Below, in pieces: positions 2,274 through 26,597 of a stretch of DNA of 26,872 nucleotides. Numbering within the stretch: position 1 is the first letter of the stretch; each line of letters begins with the position of its first letter. Under the pieces are notes generated by a model. That model did not search any database. It was given only the letters and a program-made list of their open reading frames with translations, and was not told the origin of the DNA. A program made the position numbers and the translations under genes. Source of the DNA: a virus; IMG/VR virus record IMGVR_UViG_3300020312_000013, positions 1 to 26,872 of that record; one strand, given 5' to 3'.

Positions 2274-2279
2274 CCCCTT
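2274..2279 (-). promoter_or_regulatory. Strong Shine-Dalgarno AAGGGG for gp13
   Basis: The minus strand reads TAAGGGGTAAAT before the gp13 ATG. The TAA is the stop codon of the upstream 120-aa gene, so the Shine-Dalgarno overlaps that stop and supports coupled translation. Most other starts here lack a recognisable Shine-Dalgarno. Confidence 0.7.
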
Positions 2280-2640
2280 AAGTCGAAATACCCGTTTTAA
2301 CAAGAATGTTTCCTTCAACAATTTTGAAGAAAGTGGAACCAGAACTCACATTAACGTCATACAAATATCTACCTTCTGATAAAGTTGATGTAACTGTTGA
2401 ACCCATAGAAATTGTTACTTTACCATCGGTAGTTCCTAATGTCACACCAAAAGTATTAGCAGTTCCTATTACAGATTTCTTCATATTACTTTTTCCAGTA
2501 TAATTTGTAAAATTAAGACTAGAACCAGCAGAAGTCCTTACTGTAAATACGGCGTTAAAATCTGCGCCAGAATATATGGTTAGATTTGAACCATAAGGAA
2601 CGGCAACGTCTGGATCAAATGTGATTACCTGTTTTGCCAT
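2278..2640 (-). CDS. Small beta-domain structural protein of 120 aa, possibly fibre or baseplate associated
   Basis: Function is not established. The 120-residue product reads as one compact beta domain: an N-terminal strand with YGSNLTIYSGADFNAVFTV, then a GSSLNFTNYTGKSNMKKS segment, and a C-terminal part with LSEGRYLYDVNV and KIVEGNILV. This pattern resembles small phage domains that head fibre or receptor-binding subunits, of the BppU N-terminal type. Here the domain stands alone. It lies between the 77-aa coiled-coil gene and gp13, where T4 has wac and the fibre genes, so a fibre, whisker or collar role is plausible but inferred. The gene is real: it is bounded by tightly packed genes and its stop overlaps the gp13 Shine-Dalgarno. 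Confidence 0.8.
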   Translation of the reverse strand: MAKQVITFDPDVAVPYGSNLTIYSGADFNAVFTVRTSAGSSLNFTNYTGKSNMKKSVIGTANTFGVTLGTTDGKVTISMGSTVTSTLSEGRYLYDVNVSSGSTFFKIVEGNILVKTGIST

Positions 2641-2644
2641 TTTT

Positions 2645-2878
2645 CTAATTATTTAGTTTTTGGTTTAATGACAATAATAAAGATTTGATTTCACTCATCT
2701 CATCTTTCATACCATCAAGATCTTCTTTCATTTGATCTAACTCATTATTTTTTTCTTTCATGGCTTTTTTTCTAGCCATGTAAGAATTATATTCATGAGT
2801 ATTATTATTAACTATAGCAGTAGATTCAGTATCTCTATAGAGACCCATTCTACCTTCAACTGGGACAAAATTTGACAT
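2645..2878 (-). CDS. Small coiled-coil protein of 77 aa, unknown role
   Basis: I cannot assign a function. Residues 1-34 are polar and probably flexible, with VPVEGRMGLYRDTES. Residues 35-77 are highly charged with leucine, methionine and isoleucine at heptad-like spacing (LDQMKEDLDGMKDEMSEIK, then LLLSLNQKL), which predicts a short parallel coiled coil, perhaps a trimer or dimer. Its ATG overlaps the stop of the 2547-aa gene as TAATG, so translation is probably coupled. Small coiled-coil ORFs at this place occur in cyanophage genomes as I remember them. A link between a fibre and the virion is one possibility. No signal peptide or membrane segment is present. Confidence 0.8.
   Translation of the reverse strand: MSNFVPVEGRMGLYRDTESTAIVNNNTHEYNSYMARKKAMKEKNNELDQMKEDLDGMKDEMSEIKSLLLSLNQKLNN
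2759..2780 (-). other. 7-bp inverted repeat (stem-loop) inside the 77-aa gene
   Basis: Arms CATGGCT and AGCCATG (2759-2765 and 2774-2780) are perfect and are separated by 8 bases. On the coding strand the loop is mostly A and the arms include two in-frame ATG codons (MARKKAM). Its role is unknown. It is not followed by a T-tract on the coding strand, so it is not a terminator. Confidence 0.4.
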
Positions 2879-5800
2879 TATGCAAGTGCGATAGCTCTAA
2901 GTTCTCTAATAATTGGAGGTGAGGCTTGATTTGTTCCTACCATATCAATTTTAATTTGGAACTTAGTAAATGGTTGAATTTCTCTTGTAGTATAAGTGTA
3001 TCCTCTAAATTCACCTCCCATACTTGCAGGTACTTTCTGATCAGAAAGTCCATTATTATCAGTTGGATTGATAATAGCACCAAATTGATCTGTATTAGTA
3101 TAGCCTGGGAATGGTTCCCAATTTCTATCTAGACTATTATCAACCGTACCTTCAGTCATTGTCTTATAGAAGACTCTAATATCAGAATCTGGTGATCTAT
3201 AAGCAGAAAATTCAACAGTAATTTCACTTGCTGGATTATTAAGAACAACCATCTTGGAAACATATGATGCACATGGATCTTGTCCTGTTTTACAAACTCT
3301 ACTATCAGAAGCAAAGTTTGAAACTGGACTATTAAGTCTGTTTGTGGTTAAAACATTACTTACTCGATCTATATCAATAGCAGGAGAAACATTAATGTTA
3401 TTACTACTCAAGAGTAATTCCATTGTTAATGATTTCTTAGCTGGTATTTCTGCTCCAATCTTATTATCTTCATTAATTTGAGAAGCAATCATTCTAGGAG
3501 TATCAAAATGATTTTGAGATCCCAATTGAAGATTTTCATAACCTTCATCCGCAAATGAAAGTTCTGTTCCATCAATACTTGTTGCAGAAGTTGTTCTTAT
3601 TCTAGCACCAACATTTGTGCCAGGAGGAGTCATAGTCTGAACATTAGGTGTGATAGTTTCAAACTGTATATTTTGAGTAGCCTCACAATCATTACCACCA
3701 CCACGTTTAGTAGTATTAAAGTATAGATTTGGGAAAGAACTACCACTTCTATCTGTTCCATTTTTATTAAAATCAACTTTAATATGATAGAAATCTAACC
3801 CTTTATCGTTTGGAACCGATGCACTAGCTTCGTTAGCTAAATCATGTGTTTTATTAATTCTTGCTAAAGATACTCCAGCAAATTCATATTTTACAATAGG
3901 ATCACCACTGTCATGATCTTCTATCAGAGTACCAAACATACCTCTTGTCGTAATACCAACAATTTGACCATTGGCAACTCCAGTATAAGAAATAATTTCA
4001 TCACCAATCTTAGCTAATCCATAATTAGTAGTTCCAACTCCAACACCTTCAAAAGTAGCAAAATTAGATGAAGAAGTTACATTAATTTCATTGGTATTAT
4101 TAAAGACATAATCAGCAGTAAGACTTGTTGAAGGAACATCTGATTGAATTAAATCTAAAGTAACTAAGTTATTAAAAGCGTGCATTGAATGAGCACGATG
4201 AGCAACTCTAAAGTGTAAACCATCATTAGTTTGATCAACATCAAACGAACTTATAGTATGAGCACTTCCAATTTGCCCATCAACTGTAGATCCTATACCA
4301 GTCTTACCATCAAGTCCAATTACGGCAGATCCATTATCGAACATAACAGTACCAACACCGATGTTAAATGATCCTTGTATCTCATCTAATACTAAAGTAT
4401 TATAAGCAGTAATAAGTCCAACAGAAACAACAGCTCCACTACCATTTCCTAAACCTAAAGTTCCAAGACCAACAGTATCACCCACAGCAAAATTCTTTCC
4501 GCCATTTGTGAAGGTAACAACACCAACCTTTCCATTCTCAACACGAACATTAGCAACAGCACCACTTCCATCTCCAGTTTGAGTAATTACTGGAACATCT
4601 CTGTATAAGAAATGACCACTAGAAGGAGTATAACCAACGCCAGGATTAATAATAGTTAAATCATTTGATCCATTAATGGTAGCAATACCAGCAATGTTTA
4701 CTAGAGTTGCCTTAGCACTTTCATTACCAGCCTGACTAATATTTACGCCAGGAACTAATCCTGTATATTCAGTAAATGTACTAGTAATACCAACAATTGC
4801 CTTTCTAGAAAGAGCAGTAATTGGATTATTAACTAATTTTGGAAGTTGTCCGTTTCCATGATCGAGTGATGGATTAAACCATCTTGCTACTGAAGGTCCA
4901 ATATTAAATTTAGCCTTATAAAGATTAAACTTCATATCTTCATACTGACTTGGATCCCAAGTAGTACCGTTTTGAGATTTGAATAATGAACCAAGATATG
5001 GTTGTTGACTGATAAGAACTTGTTGTTCATCAGGTAAATTAGCAGTAGATATATCAACTTCACCCATTCTAGATATCCAACAATTATAATTTTCAGCTGG
5101 AGTTACAAGAACAAGAGCATATTCATGTCCACCACTTAAATAAACAGGAGATTCAAATTGGAAATTAGTTGCTATAGATGCGTCTTCAGAAACATTAACT
5201 TCTGAAGGATCTTTAACTTTAATAGCAAATGGCAATATCTTAGAAGTTGGAAGACCAGTTTCAACTGTTCTAACTTGTAGAGTTAAAGGAATTTCTTCAT
5301 CTCTATCTCTTAAGAAAACATCTACAGATGTTAAATAAACTCCAGTTTCATCATCAACCCTAAATGTTTGAGCAAGAGGGTCATAATACTGAACACCAGT
5401 AATAACAACAGGAGCACCATCAGCACCAACTGCTGAAAAATCACGATCAGATGCATCAGGATTAACTCTTGTTTCAATTCTACCCTGAACGACTTGTTGT
5501 TCTTCTGGAGTTAATCTTTCAATATGGGGTACTTTAATACTTAAAACATTTTCCTGAACAGTTTCTAATTCACCCTTAGCATAATAATTAGCTTCTGCAG
5601 AACCAGTAACTGTTCCAGCCACAGTTGAGTTTGTTGGACTAGTAGTTACTCTTAAAGTTTTAGTTCCTGTTTCAAATTGAGGATTATCTTCATCATTTGG
5701 ATCAGGAATCATGAAAGTGAATTTTAAATTACCTAAAGTATCAGTAATAAGTCTATTTCTAACACATTTAGCATAAGCCCCACTACTCACTCCATTAAGT

Positions 5801-8800
5801 CTCATTCCTTCACTTCCAAAACCATAATATGATGGTTCTGACATATCAGCAAGACTAGCCGTGTCTATATTCAGTAGAGTAGAACCTGTTGAATATGAAG
5901 CAGGTACACCAGCTGCATTATCATATGGATTTAAAGTAACAACTTTAGTTGGTGCATCATATGGACCTTCCTTATGATTTGGTGCTGCAAGTCTCCAATC
6001 AGTATGTCTATTAGTATATAAACTTATAGGTTGATGATGTCCACGAACTCTTTCACCAATTTGGAATTGTCCATGTACCATTTCAATTTCAAGAAGTTTT
6101 GGAGTACAATACTTAGTTACATCAACATTATCAAAGAAAACATAGAATTGAGTTCTAGGTTTCATTCTATTCAAGGTAACTTCGATACTTCTAGATCTAC
6201 AGTAAGGAATAATATCTCTACTCAATACTCTATCTCCAAGAGATTCTTCATTATAAGTGGAAGATATTTGATACTGAATACCTTGTCTTGATTGATGGCT
6301 CATTTGAGCAACATCTTGGAACTCAGTCTTCTTCTGAAGTTTAGCATCAGTAATCCAACCAGCACCTTTTGGAACCCACTTACCGTTAAGTTCTATAACC
6401 TTTCCATAATCAGCAATATGTTTAACATCAAGTACAACACCTTCTGGTAACTCTGATGGATGAACCTTATCAAAGACTTGTTCTTCAACCTGAGTGAAAG
6501 TATTAACAATTTTTTCAGATGTCCATTGTTGTTCCCATACACCCCAATCAACTTCACTTAATCCAGTCTGTTCATCAATACCATACTGTGCAGCTACTTG
6601 ATCATAAGATGTAGTATCCTGTATAACATTAGCATCAAGTCTCTTAGTATCCATCCATGTATCAGAGTCTGGACTAATACTCATATCACCTGCATAATAA
6701 ACTATTAAGAATGGGTTAACATTTTCTACTCTAGATGCATAGATCTGTTTTAACATTGGAACTTCTTCATAGTCCAATGTAACTAATTTTCCAGTTTTTC
6801 TAACATTCTCTCCATCAATATCATTAGCAAAAGCTAGATCAACATTTGGATTAGCAGAAGTTCCAATACCAACATATGATTTAGAACCAACAACCATATC
6901 TACAGCAGTAGTATAATGTCCAGGCCTTAAACTTCCACTTTTAGAATCAGTACTTGCACTCCAATCTGGATGAGCAATTTGATGAGAACCATGAGTTTTA
7001 AAGTTATCAACAAAGAATCCAGATTTAAATCTACTTAATCCATTTGCATCAGTAATGTTTAAATTAGCAGTATCAGTTTCTAGTAAAGATAATCTTGTAT
7101 AATATTCAACATTTTTTATTCTAGTTTCTAGTCTCCCAATATCTGCCATTGTAAAGCGTTTATGTGGGGTTCTAGTTATTTTTACTTGTTTAATAGTATG
7201 AGTATATGCAGGAAGTTCAACTGTACATATTTCAAGAGAATCACCTACAGCATTTGGCAATCCAGGCACATCTGCTGGAACACCTTTGATGTATACCCAA
7301 TTAGCATTCTTATCCAAATATAATCTATCTTTTCTACCTTGATAGTAATTATAACTAATAATTAAAGCTTCATCAGGTACTAAAGGATCATTAATATTAT
7401 TAACACCTGAGAAATTTCTTGATCTAAAGTCAAAAGGTGAAGTAGTAGAAGATGTATTATATGGAGATACTCTTGGTCTTATATCAACCAAAGAACTAGT
7501 TTTTACTTGATATCCCTGATTATCAGGAATTAAATCAAAAGCACTCTTAGGATAACTTGTAGCTGTATAGAAGTCACCTTCATCACCACCATCTACATAA
7601 AAATTCTTAAATACTACTTTTAATTTATTAGTTGGTGCTTCAATACCTCTTTTTCTCTTAATATAAGAAAAATCATAATATGTTGGTTTATCATTACAAT
7701 TCAACATATATTGATTACTTACATCCCTATCTCCATTAGTACTATTAACAACAGTACCTTGTACTCCAGATTTTTGTCCTATTACAGGTTCACCTATTTG
7801 GAATTCAGTTCTGTTTAATCTAACAAAACCACATGTGGTGGTATTTGGTCTCTCACAGAATAAACCAACAGCATTACTATTTTTACCTACTAATTGTTCA
7901 CCAACAATAAAATCATTATTATTACCACTAGGTCCACTATAAGCAGTAAGAGTTAAAGATGGAAGTTCTGCATCTCCAGTATCATTAGACTCAAATACTC
8001 CAACTAATGCAACACATTCTGGAACATTTAAAGAAATTTTATCATCTTGAACTCTAGTTCCATAAATGGTACTAAAAGTCAAACCATCATTCTTAGTATT
8101 TGTTCCAACACCAGATGATGCATCATTTGAATTAATAATATTGATTACATTAGCATCATTTACATTCTTCAATTTGGTTTTAATATCACCCTTTAAAACG
8201 GTAGCATAGAGGTTAGCTTTACCAGATGCCTTACTTAAAGCAACAAATGTAACAGTCTTTTTATCATCAGAAACCTTTACTTGACTTGTTGTTAATGGTT
8301 CAACTGATCCATCATCATAAGATATTAAATATCTTTCTTCATCAAATGGTTGGAAGTAATAATCAGCACCAGCATTTGGAGAAGTAAATTGATTACCAGA
8401 AAATGCAATATTATCATACTGTTTTCTAAACTGAAGTGTTGTTGTAGTTACATCTACACTTTCAATATGTTTATGTCCTAATGGAGTTAGGAAACTATTC
8501 TGACCTGCTTTAAAAGTAGTATGACGAATAGCTAAATCATTAAGAAGTCTGGTACTAGGAGGTATACCGCCATCACAAACACCAGTAACAGTAGTTATAC
8601 CTGAAATATTAATGGAAGTGCCATCAGTAGCTATTCCAGTAACTATTGCAAAACTAGGATCATTTTTACCAGGCACAGTATAACTAACAATATTATTCGT
8701 AGTTATAATTCCAACAAAATTATTTCCAGAAGCAGTAATTATACCAGTATTTCCAGTAGCTCCGACTCTAGATAATTCCAAATTAGCAGAAACCTGATTA

Positions 8801-10521
8801 TTAAGACTAACAGAATTACCTATTAATACGTCAGCTTGGAAAGTAGAAACACCAACATAAGAACGTAATGATTTAACATCATTAAATCCCCAGTCATCTA
8901 CCTTAGTAATAACTCTACCATTTCTTGCACCATTAATAATTATCTGTTCATCTTTAATAAATGTACCATTAACATCTGTCAATTTAAATGATGTTGCATT
9001 AGAAGCTGTTGCAACGGCAAATCCAAAAGCGCCACTTCTTGCACCTTCAATTGAATCACCAGCAGTTACTGAAGTAATAGCCGTTCCAACTGTTACTTTA
9101 GTATATGTTTTTACATCAAATAATCTTGCTTCATATTGAGTAGTTTGATTTACATAACTAGAAGATTGAGCTTTAAAATCATAAAGTCTAGCAAGACCTA
9201 TTTCTTCTCCAAGATCACCAGCACCACCTGTGAGTCCTGTAGTTCCTCCTCTTCTTGAATTATGTAAAGCAACTGTAGCAGTAGTTCCTATACCAAGAGC
9301 AGGAGATCCATAGATATTATTAACAAAAAGAGGATTACCAGTTTCATAGAAAATTGAATGATCTTTAATTTCTCTAGTAGTTCTTGGTTTTTCTACATCA
9401 ATAAATGATGTAGAAATTTTTTCTAATTCATATCCTTTAACATAAGCCTTACCAGGCGATATTTGAAGAAGCATCAAATCATCTGATGGTGTGCTTCCCT
9501 GTTGTGTTTTTTGTTCTGCAGTATATACACCTTTATTACCAACACTATCATTTAAAGATTCTTTTGCAAAAATCTCAAATGGTTTTACATAATAATCACC
9601 AGATTCATCATAAGTTCTTGCAGCAAGAGTATCTCTTATTATATTATACTGAACATCTTTAACAAATGCCTGCATAAATCCATTTTCTATGCGAGCAATT
9701 TCTATAAAATTCTGATCATTTGTATCATCTAAAGTCTTTTTACCAAGACTTACATCAATTTTTAGTCTATCAGCGCCTGGAGCAGCATAATTTGTAAATC
9801 CAGATGCATTATCATTTAATGATGAATCTTCATCAGCAGTTACAAATGTTTCATCTATATCAAAACCAACTCTATATGATGGAGTATTACTATATTGATC
9901 AAGTATTAAAGTTTCAGATTTAACTTGAACAAAACTACCTCTAACAAAATATACACCTTCTCCAATTGACATTGCAGAACCAGTAGCAGATGCACCAAAA
10001 GCTAAAGTATTAGCAAATGGTTCATTTGTACTAATAACACTGACACCATAAACAAGATCAGAACCTGTTATTAAACTTTCACCATCTAAGAATTTTTCTT
10101 GAGAAAAATCTTCTGCACCAGATTTTTCATATTTTACATATAATGTAAGATTTCCATTAATAGATTGATCGGTAGTTAAAACTGTTTTAATAGTAGCAGT
10201 AACACCAGATCTTCCACCAGTAATTCTTATTCCCTTTAACTGATCTGCATATAATTCTACAGGAATTCCTAAGAAAGTGTCTTCAATTTGAATACATTGA
10301 AAATTATTATCATAAGTTAGGTTGCCAGGAATGACCTTTGAACCTTCTTTGAAAAAATGAGTACCAAATTGTTCAATCTGATTTTGCAGAATAGATTGAA
10401 GAGTACTTAATTCTCTAGCCTGAACTGGTGTGCCAGGTTTAAAAAGTACTTTATAAAAATTCTTATCTTTATCAAAATCGTCAAAATATGGATTGACGTT
10501 TAAGTTAGTTTCCTGTGGCAT
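2878..10521 (-). CDS. DUF4815-type giant virion structural protein (2547 aa), probably baseplate periphery or fibre
   Basis: The N-terminus (NVNPYFDDFDKDKNFYKVLF, then GTPVQARELSTLQSILQNQ) is the start I associate with DUF4815 proteins of T4-like marine phages. Other matching segments are RFTMADIGRLETRIKNVEYY near 1118-1140 followed by SGFFVDNF, RSRSIEVTLNRMKPRTQFYV near 1440-1460, DPLAQTFRVDDETG near 1705 and YALVLVTPAENYNCW near 1800. A middle-to-late region (about 1940-2210) holds GxGY repeats and an EIISYTG..RG..GT module. The C-terminal 120 residues form a beta domain ending PPIIRELRAIALA. It takes the place of T4 genes 9-12, so a role in the baseplate rim, short fibres or fibre attachment is inferred. 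Its ATG lies 9 bases after the gp8 stop. No enzymatic motif was seen. Confidence 0.82.
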   Translation of the reverse strand: MPQETNLNVNPYFDDFDKDKNFYKVLFKPGTPVQARELSTLQSILQNQIEQFGTHFFKEGSKVIPGNLTYDNNFQCIQIEDTFLGIPVELYADQLKGIRITGGRSGVTATIKTVLTTDQSINGNLTLYVKYEKSGAEDFSQEKFLDGESLITGSDLVYGVSVISTNEPFANTLAFGASATGSAMSIGEGVYFVRGSFVQVKSETLILDQYSNTPSYRVGFDIDETFVTADEDSSLNDNASGFTNYAAPGADRLKIDVSLGKKTLDDTNDQNFIEIARIENGFMQAFVKDVQYNIIRDTLAARTYDESGDYYVKPFEIFAKESLNDSVGNKGVYTAEQKTQQGSTPSDDLMLLQISPGKAYVKGYELEKISTSFIDVEKPRTTREIKDHSIFYETGNPLFVNNIYGSPALGIGTTATVALHNSRRGGTTGLTGGAGDLGEEIGLARLYDFKAQSSSYVNQTTQYEARLFDVKTYTKVTVGTAITSVTAGDSIEGARSGAFGFAVATASNATSFKLTDVNGTFIKDEQIIINGARNGRVITKVDDWGFNDVKSLRSYVGVSTFQADVLIGNSVSLNNQVSANLELSRVGATGNTGIITASGNNFVGIITTNNIVSYTVPGKNDPSFAIVTGIATDGTSINISGITTVTGVCDGGIPPSTRLLNDLAIRHTTFKAGQNSFLTPLGHKHIESVDVTTTTLQFRKQYDNIAFSGNQFTSPNAGADYYFQPFDEERYLISYDDGSVEPLTTSQVKVSDDKKTVTFVALSKASGKANLYATVLKGDIKTKLKNVNDANVINIINSNDASSGVGTNTKNDGLTFSTIYGTRVQDDKISLNVPECVALVGVFESNDTGDAELPSLTLTAYSGPSGNNNDFIVGEQLVGKNSNAVGLFCERPNTTTCGFVRLNRTEFQIGEPVIGQKSGVQGTVVNSTNGDRDVSNQYMLNCNDKPTYYDFSYIKRKRGIEAPTNKLKVVFKNFYVDGGDEGDFYTATSYPKSAFDLIPDNQGYQVKTSSLVDIRPRVSPYNTSSTTSPFDFRSRNFSGVNNINDPLVPDEALIISYNYYQGRKDRLYLDKNANWVYIKGVPADVPGLPNAVGDSLEICTVELPAYTHTIKQVKITRTPHKRFTMADIGRLETRIKNVEYYTRLSLLETDTANLNITDANGLSRFKSGFFVDNFKTHGSHQIAHPDWSASTDSKSGSLRPGHYTTAVDMVVGSKSYVGIGTSANPNVDLAFANDIDGENVRKTGKLVTLDYEEVPMLKQIYASRVENVNPFLIVYYAGDMSISPDSDTWMDTKRLDANVIQDTTSYDQVAAQYGIDEQTGLSEVDWGVWEQQWTSEKIVNTFTQVEEQVFDKVHPSELPEGVVLDVKHIADYGKVIELNGKWVPKGAGWITDAKLQKKTEFQDVAQMSHQSRQGIQYQISSTYNEESLGDRVLSRDIIPYCRSRSIEVTLNRMKPRTQFYVFFDNVDVTKYCTPKLLEIEMVHGQFQIGERVRGHHQPISLYTNRHTDWRLAAPNHKEGPYDAPTKVVTLNPYDNAAGVPASYSTGSTLLNIDTASLADMSEPSYYGFGSEGMRLNGVSSGAYAKCVRNRLITDTLGNLKFTFMIPDPNDEDNPQFETGTKTLRVTTSPTNSTVAGTVTGSAEANYYAKGELETVQENVLSIKVPHIERLTPEEQQVVQGRIETRVNPDASDRDFSAVGADGAPVVITGVQYYDPLAQTFRVDDETGVYLTSVDVFLRDRDEEIPLTLQVRTVETGLPTSKILPFAIKVKDPSEVNVSEDASIATNFQFESPVYLSGGHEYALVLVTPAENYNCWISRMGEVDISTANLPDEQQVLISQQPYLGSLFKSQNGTTWDPSQYEDMKFNLYKAKFNIGPSVARWFNPSLDHGNGQLPKLVNNPITALSRKAIVGITSTFTEYTGLVPGVNISQAGNESAKATLVNIAGIATINGSNDLTIINPGVGYTPSSGHFLYRDVPVITQTGDGSGAVANVRVENGKVGVVTFTNGGKNFAVGDTVGLGTLGLGNGSGAVVSVGLITAYNTLVLDEIQGSFNIGVGTVMFDNGSAVIGLDGKTGIGSTVDGQIGSAHTISSFDVDQTNDGLHFRVAHRAHSMHAFNNLVTLDLIQSDVPSTSLTADYVFNNTNEINVTSSSNFATFEGVGVGTTNYGLAKIGDEIISYTGVANGQIVGITTRGMFGTLIEDHDSGDPIVKYEFAGVSLARINKTHDLANEASASVPNDKGLDFYHIKVDFNKNGTDRSGSSFPNLYFNTTKRGGGNDCEATQNIQFETITPNVQTMTPPGTNVGARIRTTSATSIDGTELSFADEGYENLQLGSQNHFDTPRMIASQINEDNKIGAEIPAKKSLTMELLLSSNNINVSPAIDIDRVSNVLTTNRLNSPVSNFASDSRVCKTGQDPCASYVSKMVVLNNPASEITVEFSAYRSPDSDIRVFYKTMTEGTVDNSLDRNWEPFPGYTNTDQFGAIINPTDNNGLSDQKVPASMGGEFRGYTYTTREIQPFTKFQIKIDMVGTNQASPPIIRELRAIALA

Positions 10522-10530
10522 AGCTCTTAT

Positions 10531-12090
10531 CTAGAATTCCAATACGATTTTGATGTCTTCTTTTTGTTGTGAACTACGAGTAACGGATGCCCTATTATCT
10601 ACGTAGATTATATCACCACTGTATTTTTCAACTTCTGGATTTGCAACACCTTTAACGAAACTCATCCCTAAGTTGTAAGTCCTACTATTTATTGATGTAG
10701 AAAGACCTGGCGCCAGTGCAGTACCAAAATTAGTATCTATATTTAAGTTATTAGATCCTCCAAATACTGTTGTTCCAGCACCAGCAGTAGGGTCTGCAGA
10801 GAATTTAAATAACTCATAACCATAAGTAGGGGGATTTCCATCAGTAGAAATAGCAAGTCTTCTATCTTGCCAATATTTAAGAACTCCAGTTGTAGAATCC
10901 CAATTAACAACTCTACCAACAGCAGTAGAACCGACTCCAATTCTTTGAGTTATTTCAGAGTCTGTTGTAAATGAAGTAGTAGTAGCACCAGCACCAGTAA
11001 GTTTTATTGCATATAAAGCACTTGCTTTTGATAATGTAAGTTTATTTGTTGATCCATAAGCATAAGGATCTTTAACTAATCCAACTCTAGCAAATTGATT
11101 ACCAGTAATAAAATCTGGGTTTGTTGTATCATTTTCAATTCTAGAATAGATTAGAGATCTATTTCCACCCAATTCTTTGTAAATATCAGCTCCATGTCCT
11201 CCTTCTGGGGGAATTATGACATTAAATGAAGCATCTAAAGATCCTGCAGGGTTATTAAGACCTACATTTCCTAAACCAACATTTGCAAAAGTGTAATTTG
11301 AACCTCCACTAGTAACTTCAACAGAATCTATTTTACCAGCAGCATTAACAACAACAGAACATTTTCCTCCCTGACCATCTCCAAGAAGAGGAACATTGTT
11401 ATAAGTAGCAGCAGTACCATAACCAACACCACGACCAGTTATGGTGACAATCTTAAGTTGTCCACTAGTAGTAGCATTATTTCTTACAGCAGCAACATCA
11501 CTACTTGTTTTCCAATCAGAAGGTAAAGGAATGAAACTTGTAGAATCAAACTTTATAAGTTGATTTGGGTTAATAGTGAATAGATACTTCCAAATGTAAC
11601 CATCACCAGAAGCACCAGCAGATCTTGGTTCTAAATCGGTAAAAAGTGGTTCATCAAGAGAAGGTCTACCTTCAGTATTTTCAGGGTTTGTTCCATTCTG
11701 CAAACAAATATAAACCCTGTAATCTTGATTCATTACATAATAATTCGCATCATACAAGGTCGTAGAACTTGTTTGAGGTGAAATATTTGATCGAGAATAA
11801 TCATCTCGATACATTTCATATGTTGTACCAGAAGTCCAATCTATTTTTCTAACAACTCTGGAAATATCAGCTGCGTTTATTTTCTTCAATGCGATCATTG
11901 TATCCCAATAATCATTCTCCTCACTAAATGAGTCTTTAGGTGAAGGAGGATTTGAATCCCAGTCAGACTGGAAATCAGAAGCATTGGGAAGTCCTATCCA
12001 TGCATAATAACTATTGCTAGTAGAAGCTACCCCTGCCGTAAAGTTTTCACAGTTTAATATACGAAGCTGATCAGTTATAATGGCTGACAT
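10531..12090 (-). CDS. 8: Baseplate wedge protein gp8 with central insert
   Basis: T4 gp8 is a wedge subunit that binds gp7 early in wedge assembly. Both ends of this protein match it. The N-terminal part has YYAWIGLPNASDF, KDSFSEENDYWDTMIALKKI, then ISRVVRKIDW and the hallmark GDGYIWKYLF at 162-171, close to GDGYVWEYLF in T4. The C-terminus GDIIYVDNRASVTRSSQQKE, then IKIVLEF, closely parallels the T4 end. T4 gp8 has 334 residues and this one has 519. The extra sequence lies between about 205 and 475 and includes GxGY-like units at about 218-224 and 260-266. It follows the gp7-like gene, as in T4, with its own TATAAATA motif 20 bases upstream. No good Shine-Dalgarno is visible. Confidence 0.93.
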   Translation of the reverse strand: MSAIITDQLRILNCENFTAGVASTSNSYYAWIGLPNASDFQSDWDSNPPSPKDSFSEENDYWDTMIALKKINAADISRVVRKIDWTSGTTYEMYRDDYSRSNISPQTSSTTLYDANYYVMNQDYRVYICLQNGTNPENTEGRPSLDEPLFTDLEPRSAGASGDGYIWKYLFTINPNQLIKFDSTSFIPLPSDWKTSSDVAAVRNNATTSGQLKIVTITGRGVGYGTAATYNNVPLLGDGQGGKCSVVVNAAGKIDSVEVTSGGSNYTFANVGLGNVGLNNPAGSLDASFNVIIPPEGGHGADIYKELGGNRSLIYSRIENDTTNPDFITGNQFARVGLVKDPYAYGSTNKLTLSKASALYAIKLTGAGATTTSFTTDSEITQRIGVGSTAVGRVVNWDSTTGVLKYWQDRRLAISTDGNPPTYGYELFKFSADPTAGAGTTVFGGSNNLNIDTNFGTALAPGLSTSINSRTYNLGMSFVKGVANPEVEKYSGDIIYVDNRASVTRSSQQKEDIKIVLEF

Positions 12091-12123: not shown

Positions 12124-15100
12124 TTAGTAGGACTCTTTTAAATCCCTACTTCTGATGACTACTGGACCAGTTATGATACCAGTTATTCCATCATTGTTTA
12201 TAACGTTGAATGATGAAGTGCCTTCTTTAACGAAGTCATATACACGCCCCCAAGAGTAATTGCCAAAGAATGAACTGGAACCAATGCCAACACCTTCTGT
12301 GGAACTTACACTTACAGTTACTCTCCTTAGAGTAGTATGACCAACTCCATGTGGATCCTGTGCAGATGCAAATACTGTTTGTACACTCTGTACTCTGTAT
12401 ATATTATCTATAAAGGAAGTACCAATACCAACAGTTGTTATTCCAGTGGCATCTGAATAAGCAGTAATACCATTTCCAACATTAGTATTATATGTAATAA
12501 AGTAATATCCAGTTTGAATACCACTAACAGTAGTTGCAACAGATACAACGGATGTATCTCTTAGAACAGATTCTTTAGGAATATATAAATCAAATGTCAA
12601 TCCAGTTGTTGCAATACCAACGACAGATGTAGTACCTATACCAGTAATAATACCAAAGTCTCCATCATATTTAATATCTGCTATTGTTTCATCATTTTGT
12701 GCTTGTGGTGCAATAAGAACATTTGGAGGAGAAGTATTTGTATAACCAGCGCCAGGAGCTTCAATAGTAACAGCAGATATTGTTCCAAGACCAGAAACAG
12801 TTGCATAAGCATATGCATTAGTTGCCTCTGTAGTACCTATACCTGCATGTACAGTACCTATACCAGCAGTAACACCTATCGATACCATAGGTCTAGATGT
12901 ATATCCAGAACCACCGTCAGAAATGACAACACTTGATATAGTTCCTGCGGCAGATACAACTGCTGTTGCTGCAGCACCAGTTATTGTTGTTGGATCAACA
13001 ATAAGAACCTTTTGTTTTGCCTCTACAATATCATCAGTTTGATCAAATAATGGAGAAGAAATATCAGTAAAGAATTCAGTAGAAGCAGCAGAAACATTAC
13101 TAATAATGTAAGCAGTAGGTCTAATACCAGCTTCTAATTCTGGTCTATCTTTTCCAATACCAATATTATCAATAACTACATCAGATATTTGTTTTTTCCA
13201 AGTTACAGGTCTTACTACAGTTCTACTAGTAGAAATGCCAACATCTATGTAAGTATTAGTATCTACAGCATCAGCAGTAGTAATACCAGTAACTGTTCTA
13301 GGTAATTGTTGATGTTCACCATAAAGTCCTCTTTCTGGGAACTGATTAAGAATTAACTTATCACCTGGCTTAATAGTTTCAAGTATATCAACTTCAACAA
13401 CATCATTTTCAGAACCTCTATAAAAATATACTCTAACTTTATCTCCCTCTTTAGGAGCTTCAGAGAATGTAACTTGAGAACCACCAGCAAAAGTATAACT
13501 TTCAAATGGAACCTGAAGAATATCATTCAGGAATATTAATGTATTATCTTCAACTTTAATTGGAGATCCTTTTCCAGCTCTGAGTGTCAAAGGTGTTTCA
13601 GCAGCACCAATAGTCTTGGTTAATGGGAATGACTTTCTAACACCATCAAATAAGTTTTCAAATGAGTTTAATCTCTCAAGTTCTCCAAATGTCCATCCAG
13701 AGAAACTATCACCAAACACTTTGTTAACAGTTAATTGGAAAGTCTTAAATGAAGCACCAGCTGATGCATCAGTTGGAATACCAGCTACACCATTAGTTTC
13801 TACTGTTAATACATCATCAACGTTATAATTATATCCATAATTTGTAATCTCCCAGTCAATAATACTTGATCCTTGACCAACTCTAACCGAAATAGATGCA
13901 CCAATACCAGAAGTACTACCAGTTAATTTAATATTTTCATAATTAAGTGGAGGTTCAAAATCAAGTCTTGGTGGACTTGCAGAACTAAATCCAGAACCAC
14001 CACCATTAGTAATGGTAACTGAGGTTACTATACCTGCATCAACATTAGCAGTACCAATCTCTATAATACCTGAACTTCCAATAGCATTAACAGTAATATT
14101 TGTTTGAAGTCCTACTCTATATCCAGAACCACTATTTCCAATAGATACAGATTCAACTGTTCCTGCAGCAGAGACAATTGCAGTACCACCTGCAGCAACT
14201 AATGGTTGATATCCAAATGAACTTGTCTCACCAACAGAAACTATAACACCACCTCTGGGAATAGATGATACGTTAACATCATAATTAACAGACACACCTG
14301 CACCAGTGAAACTTACAGAAGTAATACCAGCAGTCTCTGTAATATTATAATCTACATTTGGATTTTGGAATATTTCATTTAAAAGAACAATACCAGTATT
14401 AGTTGCAAACCCTGTTATATTTTGTCCTTCAGATTTAAAGATAAATGATGTTGCTATACCAGTAAATTGATTTTCAAAAGTATCAAATACATGGTTATTT
14501 GCATAAGTATCAATATCTCCTAAAGGTTTACCTTTTCTAATAAATGCTCTAGCAGCAAATGTTGATGTAGTTGTTAATCCTACAGGGCCTTTAGCACCTT
14601 TAGGAGCATCTGTAAAGTTAATAGAATCTTTAACTATCTGATAATTACCAAGATACTTGGTTACTGTAGCATTAGCACTATGATTAACAATATCAGAATT
14701 AAGTTGACCTCTCTTTACAAGAATTTGGTTTGTAGATCCAATACCAACAGTATCAACTTTCATAAATTCATTACCAATCTTAATAACATCACCAGAATAG
14801 AAGGATGATATACCAACTAAAGTTATGAAATCAGTTGTTGTGGGAGCATCAAAAGATAACTTAGTATTGATTGGAGACTGAATAACAGGACTTTGAATAT
14901 TATTATCAAGAGTCACAAGCATCTTAGAGTTAAGATCATGTGATGTAAATGCATGTGTACTTCCAACACCAACTGCGTTTATATCCAATACTGTTGGAAC
15001 CTCTTTAAGTGCCTCAGTTGCAGTACCAGCAACTCTGAACTTATTCTCAGCAATCTTAACTGCATAAAGTGTTGATGGAAGTTTATTAGTATTTCCAAAT

Positions 15101-18100
15101 CCAACAACAGTTGTAGCAGCAATACCAATACTCATTGTTGTACCAGCACCAGTTGGTGTGTAAGTAATCTTCTCACCAGTAGTAAAGAAGTGATTATCAA
15201 CCACAAAAGTATTATTTGTAACATCAACTACAGCAGGATCAGAAGAATCAAATACTTTATGGAATACAGAAGATCCTGCATGTTTTAAATCAAAGGAGAA
15301 TTTAATATCATTTTCTGTTCCTGTATAAGATGCCTCTGTAGCCTTAATTCTACTATTAGAGAATGTTGTTATACCAGCAACACCACCACCAGTTTCTGTA
15401 AGGTTATATTGGAATACCTTAGTAGTAATAGCTGTATTTGCAGGAGGTGTAAGTCTAAGTTCTAAATCACCACCAGAAGCTGTTGAATATCCAACACCAA
15501 CAGTTCCGATACCTGAACCACTACCAATAGATGCATCGTTATCAAAATAACCAAACTCAGAGTAATATGGTGTAGTTCCATCATGTATCATTGTTACCTG
15601 AGTAACGGCTCTCTTATTATTAGTAGTATCATTAATTTCTATTAAACAATCTGCTGCCTGATAATTATTAGAACCAAAACCACTAATACGTGTTGGTTGA
15701 GGATTTGCAGTTGCAGCAATATCAGTTGTTGTAGTTAATATCTGAGATAGAGAAACTTGTGTACTTCCAATACCAGTTGCAGTTGAATCTATTGCAGTCT
15801 GATGAATTCTCATCGTTACACCAACTCCAGCAACAGGAGTAAAGTATACACTTGCAATACCAGATCTTACATCAGCTCCAAATGTACCAAGTCCTACACT
15901 AGGAGCATTACTTTCATCGATATTATCATTAATCATCTGAGCATAATCAAGCATATACACTTCAGAACCATGTTGCATAACAACAAGTTCATTAAGTTGA
16001 CTTCTCTGTTTTCCTGTTAATTTTCCATCCAATTCATCAGTTTGAATAAGAAGTTTTGCAGTTGTTGTATCACCAGCAGTTCCTAAACCAACAACATGAG
16101 TTGGTTGATCACCAGTAGATCCTATACCTGCAGAAGTAGAAACAATACTATATCCAGTACCAAGTGTGGTAGAACCAATACCAGTAGCATCTGTATCAAT
16201 AAATTCTTGTACTGAAAATACTCTTAAAGCATAATTATTAACTTTATACTTAGATGGTAAAAATCTTAAATTAGCAGCAGTACCTTGGATATTCAAATCA
16301 AATGTTCCAAGATCAATTTGAGTTTCTACTCTACCGAAAGGCATGATATATCCAAGATTACCATCATGAATCACATTAATCTGTATAATTTCCTTTTCGC
16401 CAGGGAATCTCTTATCAAATATAAGAGCATAATATTTGACACTTCTTACTTCTGTTATATCAAAGTCAGCAATATCTGAATATGGTGTTGGTCTTGGAAG
16501 ATCATTAAATTGATCACTTACACTATCAATTGATATAGCTCTATTACTATCCGACTTAATATAATCTGTTAGAATTCTATTTTCAAAGAATACTTCATCA
16601 GAAGCAGTTGTTTTAGAGTCAATTACTTTAGAATTCTCCGAAACTAAGTCAAAATCATACTTTTTATGAAGAGATTCATCTTCACTTATTAAATCAGTAA
16701 GAGTTACAGCAACTGCTGAATTAACACCAACATTAGCAGTTCTTCTTCCTTTAGAATCAGTTCCAGCAAAAGAAACAATACTAACATCTGCAAAATTCTT
16801 AAATCCTACAACATGATTTAAACTACTGACAGGATCTCTCCAAGTTTCGTGATCAATAACACTTCCTAAAGAATATGAGAATGTTTGATAATAATCACTA
16901 TCTTGAACTTTTTGCAATTCATCATTTAATTTACCAGTATCTCTTCCCCAACCAGTCCTAACTGTTGCATTTGGAGAAATATTAAATTTAGAAGTAAAGG
17001 AATTTACCTGTTCTATCCTAGCAACAGATTTAGAAGATGATCCAGTAATAGTCTCATCAACTGCAAAATCATCTAATGATAAGACTTTTAAGTACTTATT
17101 AGTATCATTCCAAGAAACTACAACACCAGTTTTGTCTCCAGTACTAACTGTTTCGCCTTCAGCAAACTCATTAACTTTTGATTTTGCTGTAAATTTAGGA
17201 ATATCTAACCAAGGAATAACTCTACCAGATGATGACGGTCCACTAAAGATGCCAGGACTTGTTACTGTAGTATCTAACTTATAAGTTACAGTAGCATTTC
17301 CTCCGCCTGGATTTGTATTAACTCCAGTAACTACAAATGGTTCATAATTATAATCGGATGAATTATATCCACTTCCAGTAGAACCAATACCGATATTCTC
17401 TACATATATTTCTTGTCCAAGACTAAATGGATAATTTGATTCAGTATATGTGCCAGGCAAAGTCAGAACAACATCATTTGTTCCACTTGTATAAGAAAGA
17501 TTTTTTATCTTAATTCCATTAGAATTATTTGTTACAACAATTCTTGGATTTGCATCATAAAGAGTATTAGTATTTGTATGAATTATAACTTTAGATACTG
17601 ATGTACCTTGAAGTTCTGTTGTTGTTACAACTTCGTCTTTGATTTCATTAGTAACTCTATCAATAACAATTATAGATGGAGGTTCAAGATAATTCTTACC
17701 AGCAGAACTAATACCAATACTTTCAATAGTAGAAAGTCTATCTAATCTAAGAATTTGTGGTAATTGAACAGCAGGTCTAATAGTATTATCTGCAGAATAG
17801 TCAAAACCAATATTTTTAGTTGTATATGTTCTTAAATTACCTACATCTGTACTATTCAATTTAATTACAGCACCAACTCCAGAAGTTGAACCAATAGAAG
17901 TTACTATAGGAATATCATTATATTTCTTACCTTTAGAATAGATAAGAATATCATTTATAGGTCCATCTGTTGTTGTAGAAGTAGTTGAATATTCTAAAGT
18001 TACTGCTTCATTCTGTGTATATGAATCTTTTTCTGGTTGAGAAAGCATATTAAAGGAGAAAGTAGTACTTCCAATACCAGTTACCTTAAATTGACCATTA

Positions 18101-21100
18101 TATGGACTTTCTTTTACTTCTATACTCGAATAATTGATAACATCAGTATCAATAACTGGATTTCTCTTAACATCCGCATCAATATCAAGATTAACTGGAG
18201 TTAATTTATAAAATAGTTCACTAGGACTATTTCCAGTTAAAGCAATATTAACTTTAGCATCGGTACTAACACCAACAGTACCTACACCTACAACTTGGAA
18301 TCCAGTATCATTAAAGTTTGCATAATATGGATTAGTGAAATTAGTATCTTTATAGAAATTAAAATCAAATACTTGTCTCTTGTTGCCAGAAATAGTTTGA
18401 CTTAAAGATGCATCAGATACAGCAAATCCAACATTATATCCACGAACTAAGGATAATCTTGGATTAATTAAACCAACTTTATGTCCTGAACCAGTTGATG
18501 TTAATTCAATAATTTGAGGGATAGTCTTAGTAGCTCTGTAATAGGTTTTACAAAGTTTAATTCTATTCTTATCTACTCTATAAACAAAGTAAGTATCATT
18601 ACTAATTAAAGGACTAGCAACTGAGGTTGAGGTATAAACAACCTTATCACCAGTATTATAGTCATGATCTAGAATAGTTATTGTATTATCAGTAGTACTA
18701 ACATCAGATCCGCCAAATGACTTTGGATTGATAATAGTTCTCTTACTAGCATCATTATATTCAACATTATAAGTTGTAGTAATGCCTGGAGTAACACTAA
18801 CATGTATTTGATCTCCTAATCCCAAATTATGATCTTTCTTACATACAACAGTTCCAACTACCTTTTCAATAGTTCCAGTAATTTCAGTTTTTGTTGGTTT
18901 TAAACTATGTTTTACACCTGAACCATGTCCAACAAAATAAAGTCTATATGCAGTTGAACCAATACCAGTAACAACACCTCCTGTACCAATACCAAGAGCA
19001 TTTGTAGATATTCCTAATAAATCTCTACTTTGGTTAATTGCAAATACGGGAGTATTATTAGCAAGTGTAAAGGTAGAAATTCCATTATAAACTTGAAGTG
19101 ATGTACCATCACCATTATTATATGTTAATTTCTGACCATCAACAAAACCGTGATTTGGTAGATAAATGTTTTGAGTAGCAACAAATTTATCTGTTCTACC
19201 ACCACCTACAACTCTATTAGTGTAACTAATAGTAGAACCTATACCAACACCAGCACTATTACCTAAAGCAACACTTTCTAGTGGATCAAAATAGTATGGA
19301 ATATTAACATTGGTAATAATATCAGTACTTAATCCAATATTAAAAGATATAGATCTGTTTAAACCAGTAATAAGACTTGTACCAGTATGAGCAGTTCCTA
19401 AAACACCATCATATTCTCTTTGAACTCTTAATTTATTATTAACATCATCAATATTAAGAACAAGCATCTGTTCTGTACCTATTCCTATTATATCACTAGG
19501 AACAATACTTTGTTTAGAAACATCACCAGCAATAGGTATACTTGTAACTATTCCTGTTGCACCTGTTGTACCAATACCAGTGTTTAAGAATAAGAAAGAA
19601 GTATTAAATCCAATAGTATGTCTTCCATCAATTGATTTAATAGAATCTGTTGAAAGTCCAGAAACAGTTATAACATCTCCTTGAGCTAAACCATGTGGTT
19701 CTGTGGAGAGTCCTGTTACCGTACCAGTCCTATTATCGTATGAAAATATAATATTATCTTTTCTAACAATAGTAGATGCAATAGAAACAACTGATTTTCC
19801 ACCTACCCTAGAAATTTTAGAAAGGAATCCATTACCAGAACCTTGAGATTCGGTAACTAATTTTTCATTGACCCTGTATCCATCACCAGCATTCTTTATT
19901 TCAAATTGATTAATCTTACCAGAAGAAGCGAAATTAACATCAGATTCTTGAATAACTAACTTTCTACTATCATAAACACCTTCATATGCAGTGCCAGGTC
20001 TATCAAGACTGTATGGGTGAGTATTTCTATTAAGATTTAAGTCATTTAAATCTTTATCTTGATTATTAGTCTCAATAAAGTTCCAATCATCAGGTTTAGC
20101 AACAAATTTTTCACCAATTAAATATGGGAATACTGGAGAACGATAATTCTTAAATGTTCCACTAGTTTCATTCTCAACTGGATTAATTGTAGCAAAATAT
20201 GCATAAGTTCCTCTAGGATAATCAGGAGTAACACAAAAACGACCATTATTTCTATCTAAATCACCATCTCCAAGATATTCATAATCTTCAATAAAGAAAC
20301 CAAGAGGATAATCTCCAAGATCAGGACCATCAGTTCTAGAAGTCTTTAAAGAATATCCAGACCGCATAATACGACTAATACCACCATCCTTTCTATCATA
20401 TCCATAAGGACCATAAATTGGGTTGCCATCATAAGCCCAACCAATGATAGGAGAATGTTGCGTAGAGACCTCCTCAGCGTTATTGAGAAGACTTAAATCG
20501 TTTTGTGCATAATTTAAGGTATTATCACTATTCTTCTGTTTGATGACCCTCCTGAGTCCTCTGGGCGCATACATGGCACTAAATTTAATACCATCATCAT
20601 TATCACCCCTAACTAAGAATCCATCATCACCTAAGAAAATATCCTCATATCTCTTGACATTATTAATATTCCAACTCTTAACTTTTGAATAGAAAACAGC
20701 ACCAGTGCCAGGCACTTGTTCTTGAACTACAACTTTAGAAGTAGTATAACCTACACCACCATTAGCAACAGTTACCTGACTAACTTTTCCATCACTATCA
20801 ATCTGTGAAATAAGTTTAGCACCAACACCATCACCAAAAATAGTTAAATCGGGAGTAGCTGTATAATCACCACCAGAACGAGTTACAATAACATCTTGTA
20901 TCTTTCCATTAGTAACAATAGCTTTATACTCTGAAGAAGATCCAGAAGATACTCTTACTGTTGGAGGAATTGAGAAATTGAATATTGTAGGAGAACCATA
21001 TCCAGTACCTTCTTCTTCTAAATTAACAGAAGTAATCTCTCCTCTAACAATTGGATTAATAACTGCATGATAATTTTCTGGATGAACAGTACTTAAACCA

Positions 21101-26196: not shown

Positions 26197-26597
26197 TATA
26201 TTCTAGCTGGGAGAAGGAGAACGTCTATTTCCTGCGTATCATATTCCATACCAATTATATTGTATGAAATTAGAGCAGACATTTCATTATTTTCACCATC
26301 AATATTAACTTTTACCTCATCAATCTCAATTCTTGGTTCATATGAGTTGAGGGCGGAAATTATTTGATTTTCTATAGCGATATAGTGTAAAGATGTATCT
26401 AATTCAAATAAACTGGCATTAATTTGAGATCCAAAGTCATTTAAAAATGGTTTTTCACCAATAATAGTCTGAACAATATTATATACAGACCTTTTAATAG
26501 CATCCTCATTTTTAAGAACCATTAGGTCATTAGTTATAGGATGCATTTTAAAAGATAAATTAATATCTCTAAATGTTTTAGATCTCTTAAGTACCAC
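26196..26597 (-). CDS. 25: Baseplate wedge protein gp25 (lysozyme-like fold family)
   Basis: This 133-residue protein matches T4 gp25 (132 residues), the small wedge subunit of the inner baseplate related to P2 gpW-type proteins. It has the family layout: AIKRSVYNIVQTIIGEKPFL, then DFGSQINASLFEL, then AIENQIISALNSYEPRIEID with the conserved EPR motif. It ends in a beta segment LISYNIIG and EIDVLLLPARI. The reading frame begins at GTG (GTG GTA CTT AAG). An in-frame TAA lies three codons upstream with no ATG between, and the next ATG (residue 18) would cut into the family region, so GTG is chosen. In T4 gene 25 is elsewhere; here it directly precedes gene 6 and overlaps it by one base. Confidence 0.95.
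   Translation of the reverse strand: MVLKRSKTFRDINLSFKMHPITNDLMVLKNEDAIKRSVYNIVQTIIGEKPFLNDFGSQINASLFELDTSLHYIAIENQIISALNSYEPRIEIDEVKVNIDGENNEMSALISYNIIGMEYDTQEIDVLLLPARI

Follow-up and report, generated by a model that had tools for sequence, protein, structure and literature searches.

A giant VrlC/DUF4815 protein, its probable partner and an LtfC-like putative fibre anchor in the gp8-gp13 slot of a kyanovirus-type phage

We analyzed the slot between the baseplate gene gp8 and the neck gene gp13 in a marine virus fragment of 26,872 bases (IMG/VR record IMGVR_UViG_3300020312_000013). This stretch, which is the whole record, is called the window below, and statements of absence refer to its proteins. 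Three genes, packed tightly on the minus strand, lie between gp8 and gp13/gp14: a giant gene for 2547 amino acids (aa) at 2878-10521, a 77-aa gene at 2645-2878 and a 120-aa gene at 2278-2640. Our reading, to which we assign a probability of roughly 0.68, is that the giant is a VrlC/DUF4815 protein whose tripods help to trigger tail contraction, and that the 120-aa protein is a T5-like anchor for tail fibres encoded elsewhere. Most fibre and socket genes of T4 are missing from cyanomyoviruses, and what stands in for them was left open in a 2010 review (PMC2984593). Testable stand-ins can now be named: VrlC would serve as the tripod, the 120-aa protein as the anchor of fibres and the 77-aa protein as a partner of VrlC.

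Results

The giant gene encodes a VrlC/DUF4815 protein

The three genes had been proposed from the sequence alone, and they are real at these coordinates. Among 50,697 phage records, homologues of the giant were found in 1542 (tblastn), of the 77-aa protein in 192 and of the 120-aa protein in 133; the genes recur in many records and are therefore not chance open reading frames (ORFs).

Judged from its sequence, the 2547-aa protein is almost certainly a VrlC/DUF4815 baseplate protein. It matched phrog_358 (E=0) and PF16075, the latter at 208.1 bits versus a curated cut-off of 30. The phi812 baseplate chain, one sequence present in 15 PDB entries, aligned with it in four collinear stretches (E=5.1e-45), and A511 gp106 in five (E=5.4e-56). 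The conserved blocks cover residues ~1-410, 925-1305, 1423-1475 and 1590-1930 together with a C-terminal beta-domain, and their order is the same in HTVC008M, Det7, Vibrio K382, phiM19, A511, Twort and phiNIT1. Three blocks are kept in the rhizobial RHph_TM2_3B and one weak block in Acica. A regular-expression scan for shared repeats found few.

The C-terminal part (residues 1691-2547, encoded at 2881-5451 on the minus strand) was modelled with AlphaFold2 (AF2) from an alignment of 32 rows, with a predicted local distance difference test score (pLDDT) of 77.0 and a predicted template modelling score (pTM) of 0.59, a low value that restricts the matches to the level of domains. The model matched 9euf_0 over 352 residues, up to residue 1151 at the C-terminus (Z 19.6, 3.9 Å). 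Its residues 22-180 matched the lectin-like domain of Cwp84 (Z 12.0), a match likewise reported for Deep-Blue and Vp4 (PMC11406892), residues ~439-523 form an inserted small domain, and residues 704-857 a C-terminal jelly-roll-like domain, for which jelly rolls of Eph, meprin and EclA were found at Z ~6. The last 120 residues, once suggested as the binding site of the two small proteins, aligned with the C-terminus of the phi812 chain and belong to a C-terminal domain of the giant itself, which argues against that suggestion.

The homologue in S-CREM2, identified by our sequence search, is gp124, which gave 450 unique peptides, the highest number in the virion table (PMC10665884). The pyramids of A511 consist of gp106 trimers and turn toward the cell wall (PMC9863714). 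The S-PM2 stretch that we examined lies outside the VrlC locus.

The 77-aa gene accompanies VrlC

The 77-aa protein (phrog_473, E=9.1e-25) contains an N-terminal RD-x-x-S motif and a predicted coiled coil, and very probably partners VrlC in some way. The VrlC stop codon and the start of the 77-aa gene share bases (TAATG). According to the computed linkage, the gene lay within 60 bp after VrlC in 197 of the 204 loci with both ends measurable; a further 7 loci were without a VrlC end and 8 were at an edge. When 204 loci with the 77-aa gene and at least 500 bp downstream were inspected for the 120-aa protein, it was unmatched in 42, meaning no tblastn match at E<=1e-3 in the available stretch. 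Because the loci were fetched by the 120-aa or the 77-aa protein, these counts lean toward presence, and some loci are one contig taken twice (L007/L085; L009/L086).

This linkage bears on the proposal, made from the sequence, that a split fibre or whisker, composed of the 77-aa and the 120-aa protein, binds the C-terminal 120 residues of the giant. The genes are adjacent and one product is helical and the other beta, but the 77-aa gene goes with VrlC, and the 120-aa match is missing from those 42 loci and, as a profile, from the whole records G005-G008, G010, G012-G021, G025 and G029. In Det7 and Vibrio K382 the second gene, after the 77-aa relative, is a different and unrelated one, in S-H34 the two are set apart by genes for a 440-aa collar fibre and for 94 aa, and in S-CREM2 the 120-aa homologue is ~50 kb away. 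Together with the alignment of the VrlC C-terminus to the phi812 C-terminal domain, these linkage data disfavour the split fibre, which we regard as highly improbable.

The second gene of Det7 (L259 6599-6940) and Vibrio K382 (L260 7976-8344) stands where the window has its 120-aa gene, following the 77-aa relative and preceding gp13, and its product resembles a membrane segment followed by a coiled coil. In the contigs L115, L116 and L117, gp13 comes directly after the 77-aa relative and the 120-aa protein was unmatched.

Relatives of the 77-aa protein were searched for with its profile in 1011 six-frame ORFs from 14 non-cyanophage DUF4815 loci. The three best matches, in SRB7757 (3.9e-12), phiM19 (2.4e-10) and Vibrio K382 (1.5e-8), were all to small genes that come immediately after DUF4815. 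In fourth place was a protein encoded upstream of DUF4815 in phiNIT1 (6.3e-8 summed, 0.078 for the best single domain), followed by a small gene of Det7 (1.2e-4), an unrelated second Vibrio gene (0.0088), a PBEF129 neighbour (0.024) and A511 gp107 (0.031). Considering position and the look of the sequence, a candidate small neighbour follows DUF4815 in 11 of the 14 loci. Small genes of this kind, A511 gp107 among them, thus occur after DUF4815 in five phage groups beyond the cyanophages. Profile comparison by hhalign gave a probability of 98.7 for the set of phiM19, Vibrio K382, Det7 and SRB7757, 88.9 for seven Herelleviridae genes, which aligned on the motif, and 0.24 for an unrelated coiled-coil control. 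Of 823 small ORFs, nine carry the strict RD motif within residues 1-35, and six of these nine are DUF4815 neighbours (A511, Twort, Sa30, phiNIT1, phiM19 and SRB7757); five of the 11 candidate neighbours depart from the motif. No counterpart of the 77-aa protein was found in the PDB, where the listed matches look like chance hits to coiled coils or repeats.

The 120-aa protein resembles LtfC and p132

The 120-aa protein matched phrog_3304 (E=1.3e-21), labelled 'L-shaped tail fiber protein assembly', and is probably a fibre or whisker adaptor of the LtfC type, a beta-sandwich. When its profile was compared with the PDB, DT57C LtfC (8hqz_Q, 1.9e-4) and T5 p132 (7qg9_R, 5.9e-4) ranked first, and the next matches, which are unrelated, began at 0.39. 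The Pfam family LtfC was matched by 6 of 16 family members (best 4.1e-5); the window protein, at 0.11, fails the cut-off. Its AF2 model (pLDDT 78.9) consists almost wholly of beta structure and aligned with the LtfC and p132 chains over 107-110 residues at 2.1-2.7 Å with Z 11.2 (VIA-align). In DT57C, LtfC is a dodecameric ring that binds the N-termini of the fibres through strand donation (PMC10713586).

The strongest functional pointer is the S-CREM2 homologue. The sole match of the 120-aa family in that phage, at 42171-42533, falls within ORF84 (42165-42554), which was named 'Tail fiber attachment' by the authors and was found in virions with 4 peptides. Directly after it comes ORF85, 'Long tail fiber' (42559-57474, 4971 aa, 286 peptides) (PMC10665884). 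The fibre-socket role foreseen for this interval is thus supported in the case of the 120-aa protein, by its best PDB matches, its fold and a homologue in virions. In the window the gene next to it is gp13 and no fibre gene adjoins, whereas in S-CREM2 one does.

The adjacency to gp13 raises a rival explanation, in which the 120-aa protein belongs to the neck and does not form a fibre collar on the baseplate; it would there hold whiskers or collar fibres and fill part of the wac role. In 161 of the 172 fetched loci carrying both genes, the 120-aa gene ends less than 100 bp before gp13. The same fold also occurs in the neck chains of Sf14 (9c39_J, Z 9.9) and Bas63 (9mt4_H, Z 9.7), as it does in other baseplate chains, and therefore the fold does not fix the place in the virion; the Sf14 neck bears two sets of whiskers (PMC11821841). 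On the other hand, the fibre collar proteins of the T5 family come first both in fold and in sequence, the S-CREM2 homologue is far from the neck genes and beside the 4971-aa long tail fibre, and fibre-like genes follow the 120-aa homologue in S-H34, S-CAM9, L081, L120 and L126. We consider the neck location unlikely and prefer a fibre anchor of the T5 type. In the remaining 11 of the 172 loci the 120-aa gene and gp13 are separated by 482-2349 bp of inserted sequence; in S-CAM9, L081, L120 and L126 this insert encodes a small protein (69-76 aa), which has a motif of the 'D-x-x-x...L-V-Y' type, and a larger one (381-605 aa) that is fibre-like.

Distant matches of the 120-aa protein were found in 15 Streptomyces phage records (e.g. 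Belfort, Stigma, Sham, Faust and Beuffert), with E of 4e-5 to 3e-3 among the matches listed, and from sequence the adaptor family appears to extend beyond cyanophages. phiM19 gave a weak match of the profile (1.3e-4). With a smaller alignment of the family, the third PDB match was 26dk_M, a 197-aa 'Structural protein', which might be a relative from a recently solved phage structure (insignificant, E=0.14). P-SSM2 has an LtfC-like gene on either side of a 198-aa gene (L165 12004-13544); this group adjoins a halogenase and other metabolic genes and lies away from the baseplate operon.

T4 genes 9-12 and wac are not seen in the window, and a one-for-one exchange is disfavoured

That gp9-gp12 and wac are lacking from the interval, as first seen from the sequence, agrees with the Pfam scans: none of the nine window proteins matched the gp9/10, gp11, collar or fibritin families (PF07880, PF08677, PF07484, PF07921) at E<=1 for eight of them and E<=0.1 for the giant protein at the gp7 position, a result compatible with a strongly diverged copy. 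The complete genomes of S-CAM9, Bellamy and S-SM2 likewise had no Pfam match to gp9/10-N, GP11, Collar or Fibritin_C, and T4 was positive for all four. That cyanomyoviruses lack wac, g10, g11 and g12 was noted as early as 2010 (PMC2984593).

In a wider comparison, PF08677 (gp11) and PF07921 (fibritin) matched T4 only among 17 records. PF07484 (collar) was found in 6 of 21 records, namely T4, S-SKS1, S-H34, S-CREM2, S-PM2 and P-SSM2 (below cut-off), and in none of S-CAM9, Bellamy, S-SM2, HTVC008M and 11 contigs. PF07880 (gp9/gp10 N) matched T4 and 4 of 16 other records, and 15 of 30 records of a second set; these 15 include Syn9, P-SSM4 and P-TIM68, the match in the last spanning 36 positions only.

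Replacement of the T4 genes, which was the original claim, describes the position well, the three genes being in the gp8-gp13 slot, but it does not hold gene for gene: sister cyanophages carry VrlC together with a gp9/gp10-N-type gene. In G006, G007 and G010 (L249, L250 and L251) the latter gene is located between a gp7-like gene and gp8, and VrlC is downstream of gp8. This co-occurrence in the Syn9/P-SSM4 clade disfavours VrlC as a one-for-one replacement of gp9/gp10. The gp9/10-N-domain protein of that clade has 408-558 aa in these three loci.

We also counted the 120-aa gene and the gp9/10-N gene in 42 kyanovirus-type records (14 cultured phages and 28 contigs, several of them near copies and many fragments), after dropping G009 (a copy of S-SM2), T4, Det7, Vibrio K382 and phiM19. 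Only the 120-aa gene was present in 19 records and only gp9/10-N in 17, with both in two (P-TIM68 and G023, with short PF07880 matches) and neither in four (S-PM2, S-RSM4, G005 and G025). Fisher's test of this exclusion gave p = 5.8e-6 for all 42 records and 0.18 for the 14 cultured ones; all 17 gp9/10-N-only rows fall in a single clade of the gp8 tree (100/100), so the exclusion amounts to one event and the p value is unusable.

The arrangement is ordinary for its lineage

Besides the window, the gp8 tree contained 39 of the 42 kyanovirus-type records (all but G003, G005 and G025), which makes 40 rows. The window grouped with the uncultured contigs G002, G004 and G001, and the neighbouring clade comprised Bellamy, S-SM2 and P-TIM68. 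By this position in the tree the virus falls among the Kyanoviridae.

In Bellamy and S-SM2 the order is gp7, gp8, VrlC, the small gene, an ORF of 59 or 60 aa, the LtfC-like gene, gp13, gp14, gp15, gp16 and a tail fibre gene. The arrangement recurs in cultured cyanophages; it is ordinary for the lineage and not new, and the window locus adds one more case to a kyanovirus pattern that was already known. The extra 59-60-aa gene is at 16783-16962 in Bellamy (L162) and at 16768-16950 in S-SM2 (L163).

Flanking genes

The flanking genes of the window are all on the minus strand. The slot is bordered on the left by the baseplate wedge gene gp8 (10531-12090; phrog_438, E=1.2e-163; PF09215, 51.6 bits) and on the right by the neck gene gp13 (1429-2268; phrog_211, E=1.8e-45), which is followed by the neck gene gp14 (38-1426; phrog_460, E=7.8e-131; PF11649, 103.7 bits). 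Beyond gp8 are a gene for a 4027-aa protein at the gp7 position (12124-24207), gp6 (24208-26196) and gp25 (26196-26597). The T4 gene order had been read at both ends: gp6, the gp7 position, gp8, gp13 and gp14 are indeed in place, and gp15 is outside the window, being the next gene after gp14 in the relatives G001, G002 and G004. The interval had also been called compact, which is not the case, since its 8244 bp and 2744 aa compare with 6374 bp and 2123 aa for T4 gp9-wac.

The 4027-aa protein matched phrog_2885 ('baseplate wedge subunit', E=0) and, at 88.7 bits, PF14240, with the YHYH domain at residues 1247-1342; PF23786 scored 26.3 bits, slightly below the cut-off of 27. The T4 gp7 chain matched it in a short patch, residues 194-224 (E=0.0074). 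VrlC itself was proposed in 2020 as a gp7 substitute, along with the prediction of a double-layered baseplate (PMC7029224); the presence of a wedge protein at the gp7 position beside VrlC disfavours that substitution. The C-terminal extension of gp14 (residues ~187-362) matched the same PHROGs as the 4027-aa protein, phrog_701 and phrog_2885, and the two proteins appear to share a module.

Discussion

A proposed host-contact module with tripods and a fibre anchor

We suggest that the interval would function as a host-contact module of the kyanovirus contractile tail. VrlC may form oligomeric pyramids or tripods on the baseplate wedges, like its homologue in A511 and phi812. After a first contact by the fibres, its lectin-like and jelly-roll-like C-terminal domains would touch the cell surface, and the tripods would relay the trigger to the wedge proteins, helping the sheath to contract. 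We infer the oligomeric state, the reorientation and the binding to the surface from the computed homology of VrlC. The 77-aa protein would be a dedicated partner of VrlC, most likely a co-expressed coiled-coil assembly factor with a chaperone role. The 120-aa protein, whose kinship in sequence and fold was computed, may hold tail fibres by their N-termini, the genes of these fibres being outside the interval. Tail-fibre genes are found between gp16 and gp17 in Bellamy and S-SM2, and in G002 (555 aa) and G004 (468 aa) genes similar to the S-SM2 tail fibre lie between the presumed genes 16 and 17; the fibres held in this lineage would most likely be the products of the genes at that place.

Several observations weigh against this reading. 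The fold match of the last VrlC domain, at Z ~6 only, is too low for naming a ligand. Six other beta-sandwiches from baseplates or necks (8zdo, 6v8i, 9c39, 4v96, 9m8o and 9mt4) aligned with the 120-aa model at Z 9.7-10.1, and the top Foldseek matches were baseplate chains of NF5 and 80alpha, with LtfC and p132 not among the 50 matches listed. The link of the 77-aa protein to Herelleviridae consists of motif and position, the single-sequence scores being poor (0.031 for A511 gp107 and above 1 for the others), and three of the 14 non-cyanophage DUF4815 loci, Acica, Lpa804 and RHph_TM2_3B, are without such a small neighbour. The label of phrog_473, virion structural protein, counts against a pure chaperone, and the 77-aa homologue gp125 of S-CREM2 is missing from the virion proteins listed as detected (PMC10665884).

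The phrog_473 label at the same time supports a rival reading, in which the 77-aa protein does not act in assembly but is a structural component of the virion, carried by the VrlC tripod as a coiled-coil pin or binding tip. The lack of gp125 from the detected list tells against such a pin too, as does the 52-aa kayvirus counterpart (Sa30), for which no PDB chain was found at E<=1 even though 15 entries hold the phi812 DUF4815 chain; both points are weak, small or flexible proteins being easily missed. We regard the pin as a real possibility, somewhat short of even odds, and keep the assembly factor as the preferred role.

Comparison with known systems

The closest parallels of the giant protein are gp106 of Listeria phage A511 and ORF65 of Staphylococcus phage phi812, pyramid proteins from the double-layered baseplates of phages that infect Gram-positive bacteria, which share with VrlC the collinear blocks, the C-terminal fold and a small gene just downstream. 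They differ in length, with 1151-1152 aa versus the 2547 aa and long insertions of VrlC, and unlike them VrlC stands beside T4-type gp6/gp8 wedges and a T4-type neck. The small A511 gene, gp107, encodes 73 aa directly after the DUF4815 gene and, like the 77-aa protein, has RD-x-x-S near the N-terminus and a helical rest. The direct similarity of the two is low, and the next motif is FIPT in gp107 and INxD in the 77-aa protein. In the open PMC literature we found no paper linking gp107 with the small post-DUF4815 genes of other groups. The gene that follows is the receptor-binding protein gp108 in A511 and the LtfC-like gene in the window.

With LtfC (p132) of T5 and DT57C, the 120-aa protein has in common the beta-sandwich fold and a weak but top-ranked sequence match, and the LtfC-like gene of S-CREM2 adjoins a fibre gene. 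The differences are the contractile tail, the lack of an adjoining fibre gene in the window and the length (120 versus 140 aa), and the likeness is known here from sequence and model.

We give even odds to a wider, twofold reading. In it, the DUF4815 tripods and a small dedicated partner with RD motif and coiled coil are an ancient two-protein module, spread over contractile phages of the Herelleviridae, Ackermannviridae and Kyanoviridae and of the rhizobial, vibrio and sulfate-reducer groups, and the tail of this kyanovirus lineage is a hybrid: its wedges and neck would be of T4 type, its tripods of Herellevirus type and its fibre collar of T5 type, where T4 has gp9 sockets, short fibres and whiskers.

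Among cyanophages, the VrlC locus of S-SM2 and Bellamy has the same order of gp7, gp8, VrlC, small gene, LtfC-like gene, gp13 and gp14 as the window, and differs by the extra 59-60-aa ORF between the two small genes. In pelagimyophages a host-recognition cluster has been placed between VrlC and gp14 (PMC7029224), whereas the window has only the two small genes and gp13 there. Finally, T4 gp9-gp10-gp11-gp12-wac occupies the same slot between gp8 and gp13 and probably does much the same work, contacting the host and anchoring fibres; in the window this would fall to other families encoded in a longer interval.

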